DNA from: Bifidobacterium thermophilum DSM 20210
Lineage (GTDB): Bacteria > Actinomycetota > Actinomycetes > Actinomycetales > Bifidobacteriaceae
Length of the DNA: 64,000 bases
Reading direction: 5' to 3'
Assembly (NCBI GenBank): GCA_000771265.1
Contig: JDUB01000002.1
Location: 1 to 64,000 of the forward strand
Positions within the stretch are counted from its first letter, which is position 1. Each line of letters opens with the position of its first letter. Positions 14,354 to 52,864 of the stretch are shown in pieces. The notes beneath the pieces were generated by a model. That model ran no database searches. It saw only the letters and a program-made list of their open reading frames with translations, and was not told the DNA's origin. The translations under genes were made by a program, and so were the position numbers.

Positions 14354-14435
14354 TGACTTGGTCGGTTGAACTGGCTGGTTGAGCTGGTTTGACTGACTTG
14401 GCTGGCTTGACCGACTTGGCCGACTTGGCTGGTTA
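14354..14435. repeat. Degenerate 9-bp tandem repeat
   Basis: Nine-base units such as GCTGGTTGA, ACTGACTTG, GCTGGCTTG, ACCGACTTG and GCCGACTTG run head to tail for about nine copies in the 3' untranslated region of pilO. It is probably a slipped-strand minisatellite. No coding role is seen. Confidence 0.7.
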
Positions 14436-14462: not shown

Positions 14463-14505
14463 CGAGGCGGGCGGGAACCTATTGAGTGGGTTCCCGCCCG
14501 CCTCG
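14463..14505 (+). terminator. Strong terminator of the pilus operon
   Basis: A perfect 17-bp stem (CGAGGCGGGCGGGAACC and its complement) with a 9-nt loop, about 200 bp after pilO. Only a weak T-rich tail (TGTATTTC) follows. Confidence 0.8.
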
Positions 14506-14579: not shown

Positions 14580-15110
14580 TTGTGAGCGGATCATCACACG
14601 GTGGCGGTCCTATCCGTCCTGATGGTTGTTTCTTGCTGTTCCGGTTGCCAGTGTGTGAGCCAATCCTCACACAGTGCCGGTTCTGACGACTCGATTAGGC
14701 GTTTCCATGTTGGCGCGGGGTGAGTGTGTGAGCCAATCCTCACATGGTGGCGGTGTCGTAAGTTGTGATGGTCGTTTTCTAGTCGGTTAGAGGTCGGTGT
14801 GTGAGTCAATCCTCACACAGTCACCCATAGGTGATGCCGCCACCGCAATCCCAACCACCCGAACCGCCACCGTGCGAGCCAATCCTCACACAATGACCAC
14901 CGAGCACTTCCAAATCAGCCAATCCCATCAACCCAACCGGCACTGTGTGAGCCAATCCTCACACAACCACGGCAGAGTCGCGCCGAACCGGCAAAACCCA
15001 CCCTCCAGACCGTCACCGTGTGAGCGAATCCTCACACGATGACGGTTCCGTCGATGATTCTGGTCGTCGGTGTGCCGGTGAGGGGTGAGTGTGTGAGCGG
15101 ATTCTCACAC
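14580..15110. repeat. Array A: eight 20-bp dyads at exactly 73-bp spacing
   Basis: Dyads of 7-6-7 form start at 14580, 14653, 14726, 14799, 14872, 14945, 15018 and 15091; all seven steps are 73 bp. The commonest copy is GTGTGAGCCAATCCTCACAC. The six central bases vary (CCAATC, TCAATC, CGAATC, CGGATT, CGGATC) while the arms are nearly constant; the first copy is degenerate. The 53-bp spacers are mutually related at their ends: a RRTGRCGGT-like start in spacers 1, 2, 3, 7 and 8. The same motif appears as its reverse complement at the other end of spacers 4, 5 and 6. No open frame crosses the array convincingly. It fills most of the pilO-glyS gap. Confidence 0.95.
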
Positions 15111-15202: not shown

Positions 15203-15516
15203 TCGTATGCCGTGACAAACGCTGTTAATCAAATCTCGCCGGAACGCGGCCGCGCCCGGCAGTATTCCGTGGTTTGCGCATGCCCGGACATATACAAACC
15301 GGCATTACTACTCCCGGGTGGATTGGAACGTCTGGTGTCTGTCGTGTGCCGTATGTCAAGGCATGCGCAATCCGGTATTACGGCCTCCGGATTGTGCGGT
15401 CTGTTTCCTCTCAGGTGAGCTGCGTATGTCGGGGCATGCGCAAGTCGGCGTTCTGTTTCCTGAGTAGGGCGGGACGTCTCCTGCCCGATGGGCGGTATGT
15501 GAGTCAATCCTCACAC
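15203..15516. repeat. Array B: second dyad type at 73-bp spacing, ending with an array-A dyad before glyS
   Basis: A different 7-6-7 dyad starts at 15276 (GCGCATG, arm, then CATATAC), 15349 (CCGTATG ... CATGCGC) and 15422 (GCGTATG TCGGGG CATGCGC). The steps are 73 and 73. A degenerate copy (TCGTATG CCGTGA CAAACGC) fits 73 bp earlier at 15203. The next dyad, 75 bp on at 15497-15516, is of array-A type (ATGTGAGTCAATCCTCACAC) and lies 88 bp before the glyS start. The downstream flanks share a CCGGYATTAC-like block, so these are diverged tandem units. Between arrays A and B the repeat is disrupted (15111-15202), though GTGTG, TGAGCCA and CCTCACA fragments remain. Confidence 0.8.
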
Positions 15517-15604: not shown

Positions 15605-17125
15605 GTGGCTAGTTCTAAACTCGATGAAGTCGTCTCCCTCGCCAAGCGTCGCGGGTTCGTGTTCCCCGCGGGCGAGATCTACGGCGGCACCCGTTCCGCG
15701 TGGGATTACGGCCCGCTCGGCGTCGCGCTGAAAGACAATATCAAGCGTGAATGGTGGCGCTCCATGGTCGTCACCCGTGGCGATGTCGTCGGCGTGGATA
15801 CTTCCATCATCCTGCCGCCGGAAGTGTGGGTTGCATCCGGCCACGTGTCCGTGTTCAATGATCCGCTCATCGAGTGCCTCAACTGCCACAAGCGCCAGCG
15901 TGCCGACAAGTTGCAGGAATCCTATGCAGAAAAGCATGGCGACAAGATGCCGGAGAACGGCCTTGCCGACATCGTGTGCCCGGATTGCGGCGTGCGTGGC
16001 AAGTGGACGGAACCGCGCGACTTCAACATGATGCTGCGCACCCATCTCGGCCCGGTCGAGGACGAGAACTCGCTGCACTATCTACGCCCGGAAACCGCGC
16101 AGGGTATTTTCGTGGACTTCAAGAACGTGATGATGGCGAGCCGTTCCAAGCCGCCGTTCGGCATTGCGAATATGGGCAAGTCGTTCCGCAACGAGATTAC
16201 GCCCGGTAACTTCATCTTCCGTACCCGTGAGTTCGAGCAGATGGAGATGGAGTTCTTCGTCGAGCCCGGCACTGATGAGGATTGGCATCAGTACTGGATT
16301 GATACCCGCACCCGCTGGTACCTTGATTTGGGCATCAACCCGGCGAACCTGCGTCATTACGAGCATCCGAAGGAGAAGCTCGCGCACTATTCGAAGCGCA
16401 CGGTCGATATTGAATACAAGTTCGGCTTCCAGGGTTCCGATTGGGGCGAGCTGGAAGGCATCGCGAACCGTACGGACTTCGATCTGTCCGCCCATGCGAA
16501 GCATTCCGGCGAGGACCTGAGCTACTTCAACCAGGCCACCGGTGAGAAGTACGTGCCGTACGTGATTGAACCGGCCGCCGGCCTGACCCGTTCCCTGATG
16601 GCCTTCCTCGTGGACGCGTACGACGTGGACGAGGCTCCGAACACCAAGGGTGGCGTGGACAAGCGCACGGTGCTACGTCTTGACCCGCGTCTGGCCCCGG
16701 TCAAGGCCGCGGTGCTGCCGCTGAGCAAGAAGCCGCAGTTGCAGACCATTGCTCACAACCTCGCCGCCGACCTGCGTCAGCACGAGTGGATGATCGACTA
16801 CGACGAGGCGGGCGCCATCGGCCGTCGTTACCGTCGTGAGGACGAAATCGGCACCCCGCTGTGCGTCACCGTCGATTTTGACACGCTTGACGACAACGCG
16901 GTCACGATTCGTGAGCGCGACACCATGCAGCAGGAGCGTGTCAGCCTTGACAAGGTCGCCGATTATGTGGCCGACCGCGTGAGCGAGAAGCGCGTGCGCT
17001 ATCCGGAAGGCCCGGCCAGCGTGACTGGCGTGAAGGCGGCCGACGGTGGCGTGGACGTTTCTAAGGAAAGCGGCATCGACGAGACCCAGCCGGTGAAGAT
17101 CGCCGAAGCCGGCGGCCTGTACTGA
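15605..17125 (+). CDS. glyS: Glycyl-tRNA synthetase (single-chain, dimeric type)
   Basis: 506 residues. Charges tRNA-Gly in the cytoplasm. Class II aminoacyl-tRNA synthetase of the alpha-2 type, not the alpha/beta tetramer. Start GTG at 15605 gives [28 protein letters not shown], the expected N-terminus; GAAGGTG lies upstream. Motif 2 region [25 protein letters not shown] and motif 3 region [10 protein letters not shown] are present, as is an anticodon-binding C-terminal domain from about residue 370. A CxxC ... CPDC pattern ([16 protein letters not shown]) near residues 90-135 looks like a zinc knuckle. The array-B dyads lie directly upstream, so their effect on glyS transcription is worth testing. 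Confidence 0.95.
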
Positions 17126-52609: not shown

Positions 52610-52864
52610 GTGTGAGTGAATCCTCACATGATGACGAGTCGGGACGCTCTGCCGGACAGATTGTGGGTGTATCTGCCCGGCGTGCGACTCTGCGATCGCA
52701 CTGTGGGGAGGTGGAGCGCCTAGCTGGTTTCAATTAGTGGGTTATCTGCCTGCCGTGCGACTTGGCGGTCGCACGGTGGGGACATCGGCGCGGTTGAGGC
52801 GATCAGCTGGCGCGCTCTGCGTTATCAGCTTGCTGTGCGACCCCGCGTTATTTCCTCTCGCATG
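52610..52864. repeat. Array D: dyads at 72-73-bp spacing, followed by degenerate copy
   Basis: Dyads start at 52610 (GTGTGAGTGAATCCTCACAT, array-A type), 52682 (GTGCGACTCTGCGATCGCAC) and 52755 (GTGCGACTTGGCGGTCGCAC, perfect 7-6-7). The steps are 72 and 73. A broken copy begins at 52835 (GTGCGACCCCGCG ... CTCGCATG). A 16-bp spacer end (TATCTGCC core) precedes the second, third and last copies at 52666, 52739 and 52819. It lies in the 850-bp gap between the helicase and mraZ. Confidence 0.85.

Follow-up and report, generated by a model that had tools for sequence, protein, structure and literature searches.

Arrays of palindromes at a common 73-bp pitch in intergenic DNA of Bifidobacterium and related genera

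We analyzed a 64,000-nucleotide stretch of Bifidobacterium DNA, referred to here as the window, taken from what we call the source genome (G000). Between a PilO-like gene (Pfam PF04350) on one side and, on the other, a gene at about 15605-17125 that we take to encode glycyl-tRNA synthetase, this window carries eight regularly placed dyads that we designate array A (Table 1). Palindromes of a different sequence, class 3, lie directly downstream of the array and are followed by one more dyad of the array A type. A preliminary description of this DNA had reported that all seven intervals between the eight dyads measure exactly 73 bp, and the dyad starts, from 14581 to 15092, bear this out. Just upstream of the array, and outside it, are a strong terminator-like hairpin with 20 pairs counted (14463-14505) and an 18/27-bp tandem repeat (14372-14434). 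Within array A itself we found no terminator-like or promoter-like matches, and we rejected the idea that the dyads are intrinsic terminators, as the strong one is the hairpin outside.

Table 1. Palindromic sites in the window.
Feature	Sequence	Position	Strand	Spacing
Array A, class 1, eight dyads	TGTGAG-N6-CTCACA, core mostly YNRATC	14581..15109	+	seven exact 73-bp steps
Array A, dyad 1	TGTGAG CGGATC ATCACA, one arm mismatch	14581..14598	+	
Array A, dyad 2	core CCAATC	14654..14671	+	
Array A, dyad 3	core CCAATC	14727..14744	+	
Array A, dyad 4	core TCAATC	14800..14817	+	
Array A, dyad 5	TGCGAG CCAATC CTCACA, one arm mismatch	14873..14890	+	
Array A, dyad 6	core CCAATC	14946..14963	+	
Array A, dyad 7	core CGAATC	15019..15036	+	
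Array A, dyad 8	core CGGATT	15092..15109	+	
Class 3 array, four sites (15205, 15278, 15351, 15424)	palindrome GYATGYC-NN-GRCATRC	15205..15439	.	three exact 73-bp steps
Solitary class 1 dyad	core TCAATC	15498..15515	+	75 bp centre-to-centre past the last class 3 site
Solitary class 1 dyad, in a separate intergenic gap	core TGAATC	52611..52628	+	

Six of the eight dyads in array A are perfect over the 12 arm bases, and the other two carry a single mismatch. Over the whole window we counted 10 dyads with at most one mismatch, compared with a mean of 0.25 and a maximum of 2 in 60 first-order Markov simulations. When three mismatches were allowed, the count was 24 dyads against 26.6 expected by chance, with no excess, and the signal therefore comes from the near-perfect copies and from how they are spaced. 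The spacers had been described as alike only near their ends; consistent with this, spacers within the same array of the source genome have a mean identity of 0.577, compared with 0.524 for spacers of different arrays and 0.500 for shuffled controls. A distance of 73 bp is about seven helical turns of DNA, a correspondence that had been pointed out in the preliminary description and that we uphold.

Array A is one part of a larger, genome-wide pattern. The source genome contains 102 exact dyads TGTGAG-N6-CTCACA and no copy of a reversed control. In 64 of the 102, which we call class 1, the core reads NNRATC (oriented one way in 40 and the opposite way in 24) and is asymmetric and conserved. 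At least 34 of the remaining 38 lie on contig C1 between 202 and 246 kb and make up class 2, whose core varies freely and is more symmetric than that of class 1. We refer to the source genome, B. apri (G008), B. boum (G014), and B. thermophilum (G101), one genome per species, as the boum group. Across the loci of this group, 303 of the 318 distances of up to 145 bp between consecutive dyads with at most one mismatch were 72-74 bp, where loci in the relatives had been picked for a dyad pair 68-78 bp apart, with all distances within them counted, and stretches of the source genome had been picked for holding a dyad.

The class 2 zone of the source genome comprises two loci, L093 and L094, among genes that we read as gltA-, prfB-, ftsEX-, and smpB-like. 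In B. apri, B. boum, and B. thermophilum, too, the class 2 loci come from one contig each, with the exception of an odd array in L052. We discarded the possibility that the zone marks an origin or terminus domain, as the closed 2.2-Mb genome of a relative, G011, fits neither, with dnaA and the ftsX-like gene located at 1.3 kb and 634 kb, respectively. Contigs C4, C12, and C20 of the source genome end in or right beside dyads, and the arrays thus seem to break the assembly. At their midpoint, class 1 spacers carry a weak half-period dyad, GAATC...GATTC (54 copies of GAATC compared with 6.3 expected, 41 of these falling in the two bins immediately to the left of that point). This midpoint dyad was not seen when looked for in class 2, and the enriched words of genome G172 lie elsewhere, so it is not a general design.

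Exact dyads were matched in 13 of 112 genomes of the genus, with 143 in B. apri, 102 in the source genome, 73 in B. boum, 60 in B. thermophilum, 4 in B. minimum (G049), and 1 in each of eight others, while the control gave single matches in 4 genomes. Pairs of dyads 73 bp apart, with up to three mismatches, occurred in 8 of 189 Bifidobacteriaceae genomes, the control giving 0 in all 189. Such pairs numbered 109 in the source genome, 78 in B. apri, 49 in B. boum, 43 in G172, and 38 in B. thermophilum, with fewer in G130 (11), B. minimum (5), and Pseudoscardovia radai (G170; 5). These eight genomes comprise all four boum-group members, two Pseudoscardovia genomes, and two that probably acquired their dyad pairs by horizontal transfer. 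A scan of 84,980 species genomes, from which records near the window's own may have been left out, returned 62 loci with exact pairs 68-78 bp apart, all in B. apri, B. boum, and B. thermophilum apart from one locus each in B. minimum, P. radai, and Paractinoplanes, the last with a step of 71 bp. No dyad pair was found in viral contigs, and array A is unmatched among plasmids and phages; we therefore rejected a phage or plasmid origin. We found no description of such arrays in the open-access full-text literature, as judged from titles and the beginnings of abstracts.

B. minimum and G130, which belong to different genera, share a 7.7-kb segment that has arrays at both borders and is 99.3% identical (L162 7374-15079 and L164 7415-15120). 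By our reading, the segment encodes two amidohydrolase-like proteins along with a permease and a regulator, and its border genes presumably encode transposases. In G172, a segment with a class 1 array and a metA-like gene encodes proteins up to 97% identical to those of B. apri; the remaining arrays of G172 are its own, long, and built on the half-site TGCGAG.

The class 3 palindrome, GYATGYC-NN-GRCATRC, is spaced in the same way. When its sites were scored independently of their neighbors, in loci that had been chosen for class 1 or 2, 58 of the 66 distances of up to 200 bp were 72-74 bp, 50 of them exactly 73; an alternative count in which weak sites were retained only beside a neighbor placed 79 of 83 at 72-74 bp. 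In the family scan, class 3 pairs at 73 bp numbered 91 in B. apri, 65 in the source genome, 21 in B. boum, 13 in B. thermophilum, 4 in G172, and 3 each in B. minimum and G130, with a single 3-mismatch match in G015 and 0 in the control. Thus, seven of the eight genomes with class 1 or 2 pairs also hold class 3 pairs, P. radai being the one without. None of the 21 class 3 sites in the stretches of the source genome lies inside a gene called by our own gene caller. Class 1/2 and class 3 arrays sit side by side at 27 junctions of less than 300 bp, and the distances across these junctions are scattered from 38 to 292 bp, so that there is no lattice common to the two and a locked phase between them can be discarded. 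The occurrence of one pitch in two unrelated palindromes means that common descent of the 73-bp unit is insufficient as its cause.

Selection on both the dyads and the distance between them had been proposed for array A, with a decaying satellite as the contrary outcome. Our comparisons of related genomes support the proposal: a spacing of 72-74 bp is retained, which argues against decay, and when orthologous loci were aligned the arms changed less than the spacers in all six species pairs. Mismatch in arms and spacers, respectively, was 3.8% and 21.6% between the source genome and B. apri (intergenic DNA, 12.1%), 7.0% and 12.8% between the source genome and B. thermophilum, 0 of 36 and 20.3% between the source genome and B. 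boum, 3.5% and 12.6% between B. apri and B. thermophilum, 1.7% and 3.3% between B. apri and B. boum, and 3.2% and 8.9% between B. boum and B. thermophilum (intergenic DNA, 3.6%). Arms also differed less than ordinary intergenic DNA in five of the six pairs, the two being about equal between B. boum and B. thermophilum.

Spacers mostly differ in length by no more than one base. In 8 of 87 reciprocal-best interspecies spacer pairs, which share sequences across comparisons and so are not independent, the difference reached 2 bp or more, against 23.0 such pairs expected under a neutral length model that assumed 0.12 indels per substitution and indel sizes as observed. If the count is limited to lengths that could be detected, the neutral expectation is 18.7%, or about 16 of the 87 (binomial P of 0.011 for the 8 seen), and at half the indel rate (0.06 per substitution) it is 10.3%, or about 9 of 87, which leaves no deficit; measured intergenic rates were 0.109-0.150 indels per substitution. 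One-base changes, by contrast, are in excess (25 compared with 11.9 under neutrality), suggesting that about one base of slack is tolerated. Between the source genome and B. apri, BLAST gaps per substitution were not lowered in spacers (0.167, compared with 0.109 in intergenic DNA). Because the length test depends on the assumed rate and BLAST gaps are not lowered, the stronger argument for selection on distance is the narrow peak over near-unrelated spacers together with the pitch shared by two palindromes.

Arrays in the source genome are intergenic according to our gene caller, with two overlapping a gene end by 5 bases. Around 39 arrays or single dyads, the flanking genes are arranged +- in 13 cases, ++ in 10, -+ in 9, and -- in 3, with 4 at contig ends. 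Convergent gaps are enriched, both in the source genome (13 of 29 compared with 16 of 111; P of 0.0013) and in the four species pooled with orthologues counted repeatedly (31 of 82 compared with 37 of 272; P of 4e-6).

Orthologous sites often retain their arrays and differ in unit number by whole units, with counts of 1, 2, and 4 dyads in one case and 3, 6, and 2 in a second; at a further site, each of three species has 13 dyads, with individual units replaced. Unit identity of at least 0.7 was reached by 37 of 231 pairs at lag 2, compared with 22 of 327 neighboring pairs (P of 0.0007), and by 62 of 398 pairs at lags 2, 4, and 6, compared with 43 of 569 at lags 1, 3, and 5 (P of 0.00014, computed over unit pairs that are not independent). 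This suggests that blocks of two units (146 bp) are a frequent unit of amplification, although lag 7, at which 18% of 33 pairs reach that identity, is at odds with the even-lag pattern and does not fit. Three B. apri loci (L014, L041, and L057) show a partial A-B-A-B alternation, a higher-order repeat of about 146-148 bp. In an empty-site comparison, the locus L097 of the source genome and L066 of B. apri were too diverged for an insertion boundary to be found.

The two arms of a dyad vary independently of each other, as seen in 313 class 1 and 177 class 2 copies. Only one class 1 arm pair, 2/15, varies often: among the 313 copies it is C-A in 29 and T-G in 27, which makes 56 single transitions, and both changes (C-G) occur together in 2. 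A double change at class 1 pair 5/12 occurs in one copy, and z scores above 4 at pairs 0/17 and 5/12 are owed to single degenerate copies. Excess pairing is found in the flanks (-7/24 and -8/25 in class 1, -1/18 in class 2), not in the arms. Among 118 class 3 copies, Watson-Crick pairing at the outer Y/R pair is rarer than expected (0.34 compared with 0.52; z of -4.4), so that the half-sites are unequal, one tending toward GTATG and the other toward GCATG. Judged by sequence, such unequal halves look like the half-sites of a protein site, not like a stem.

No partner protein had been visible in the window, and none was recognized among the genes flanking the arrays of the source genome, 30 of 61 of which we scanned against Pfam. 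Their families include BPD_transp_1 transporters (twice), metabolic enzymes, Vsr, an HhH-GPD repair protein, and MraZ, along with regulators of the HxlR, MarR, GlnR-like, and ROK types and three genes without a family. The RAYT family (PF01797) is absent from all four boum-group genomes and was matched in 1 of 13 genomes searched, G061, which itself has no dyad. The two PF00589 genes of the source genome, perhaps XerC and XerD, are separated by about 10 kb on contig C23, and similar pairs occur in many of 20 genomes searched. PF00239 was matched twice in B. boum and once in B. thermophilum, and not at all in the source genome or B. apri. There is one ParB in the source genome, its two ParB_N matches being halves of one frame on contig C47; B. 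apri and B. boum have one further match each, weak or distinct, and no ParB was found among the 30 scanned flanking genes. Within these families the source genome showed no gene dedicated to the arrays, and we rejected as partners RAYT, ParB, and recombinases of the tyrosine (PF00589) and serine (PF00239) families.

We weighed several other explanations for the arrays. The preliminary description had offered as an alternative that each unit is a structured RNA of about 73 nt. Each dyad could indeed form a stem of 6-7 bp, but the lack of arm covariation and the anti-pairing in class 3 make hairpin RNA unlikely, flanking genes occur in every arrangement, the window has no Rfam match at the gathering threshold, and array A lacks terminator-like and promoter-like matches; we reject RNA hairpins on the covariation and Rfam results and regard processed RNAs or transcript hairpins as very improbable. 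The same description had likened the dyad to a tyrosine-recombinase core. If each dyad were the core of a site-specific recombinase site, and the units cassettes that are gained, lost, and flipped, this would agree with the asymmetric, conserved class 1 core, with whole units having been gained and lost, the breakpoints lying at dyads, and with a spacer orientation opposed to core orientation in 48 of 135 class 1 units (55-bp spacers whose two flanking cores agree, with an orientation profile partly tracking C/G skew). Recombination has no need of a constant distance of 73 bp, however, class 2 cores vary freely, and the only PF00589 genes of the source genome are the two that are paralleled elsewhere, with neither PF00239 nor PF01797 matched. 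We regard the likeness to a recombinase core as weakened by this gene content, and the cassette explanation as having little probability. We give similarly little credence to a functionless, ordinary decaying tandem satellite. Block duplications combined with spacer divergence do look satellite-like, and the deficit of length changes vanishes at half the measured indel rate; against this stand the concentration of spacings at 72-74 bp, the conservation of arms relative to spacers in every species comparison, and an unrelated palindrome with the same pitch.

The main rival, which we consider rather unlikely, is that the dyads are REP-like selfish extragenic palindromes spread by transposition or recombination, the period reflecting how units are copied. 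An extragenic location, high copy number, and convergent bias are as such an element would have them, and so are orthologous arrays differing by whole units, the greater resemblance of units at even than at odd lags, and the near-identical array-bounded segment in two genera. Spacers of different arrays are nevertheless near random, so that sites have not, as a rule, recently received copies of the 73-bp unit from one another, and neither the single pitch of two unrelated palindromes, nor the conservation of arms among orthologues, nor the lack of a Y1 transposase in the four boum-group genomes is what this explanation would lead one to expect. REPs are reported to lie mainly between unidirectional and convergent genes and fall into GTAG and CGTC super-families (PMC3733652). 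REPs and BIMEs, with palindromes of 20-40 bp, resemble the present arrays in being short, extragenic, high-copy, clustered palindromes that are often found between convergent genes. The present arrays differ in their fixed 73-bp pitch, common to two unrelated palindromes, and in having no one-sided GTAG or CGTC tag (by eye, class 1 and class 2 flanks mirror each other), no RAYT, the family that goes with GTAG REPs, found in the boum group, and a stem that is not kept as a pairing structure.

Two other known systems invite comparison. The F-plasmid centromere, parS-F or sopC, is described as twelve 43-bp tandem repeats with ten 16-bp inverted repeats that are bound by ParB-F (PMC6238139). The centromere shares with our arrays tandem units of constant length with one dyad each, and a dimeric protein is likely here too; unlike it, our arrays occupy many chromosomal intergenic sites at 73 rather than 43 bp, have nearly unrelated spacers, and belong to a genome with one ParB only. 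CRISPR arrays likewise consist of regular repeats and variable spacers. Ours differ from them in having an 18-bp dyad and spacers of about 55 bp, some of which are kept between species, and array A had no match among 72,556 plasmid and 50,697 phage records.

The explanation we favor, with confidence that is about evenly balanced, is that the arrays are oriented sites for lineage-specific dimeric architectural proteins, all facing the same side of the DNA and set at a pitch of seven turns. Each dyad would bind one dimer of a sequence-specific protein, and the 73-bp pitch would set every dimer on the same face at an equal distance, so that neighboring dimers could touch or be bridged and the intergenic stretch would become a regular nucleoprotein block. 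A pair of related proteins, or of domains within one complex, would combine a shared geometry with different DNA specificities; indeed, the pitch common to TGTGAG and GYATGYC dyads would be explained most simply by such a geometry. The resulting blocks would probably act as architectural or insulating elements at the borders of transcription units. More tentatively, and with a probability that we put well short of even, the arrays might belong to a dispersed, chromatin-like bacterial system, in which at least two proteins with different palindromes and one oligomerization geometry form seven-turn lattices, often of 146-bp two-unit blocks, that fold or insulate intergenic DNA.

A constant distance over near-unrelated spacers, common to two palindromes, is a strong hint of a protein machine that measures. 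If a protein family does read this lattice, it would constitute a new means by which bacterial chromosomes form ordered nucleoprotein blocks, with the arrays providing countable, ready-made sites for protein isolation and for tests of helical phasing.

With all three classes masked, intergenic 7-mer repeats still peaked at lag 73, with 379 matches compared with a mean of 36.5 (sd of 25.9). Beyond a 60-bp margin around known sites, lag 73 had 4 matches, no more than neighboring lags; lag 72 had 21 (8 of them from one P. radai tandem repeat) and lag 84 had 16. We take the peak in the masked data to be leftover spacer similarity rather than a sign of further palindromes. In P. radai, a 72-bp non-palindromic tandem repeat adjoins a dyad array (L165 7235-7460).
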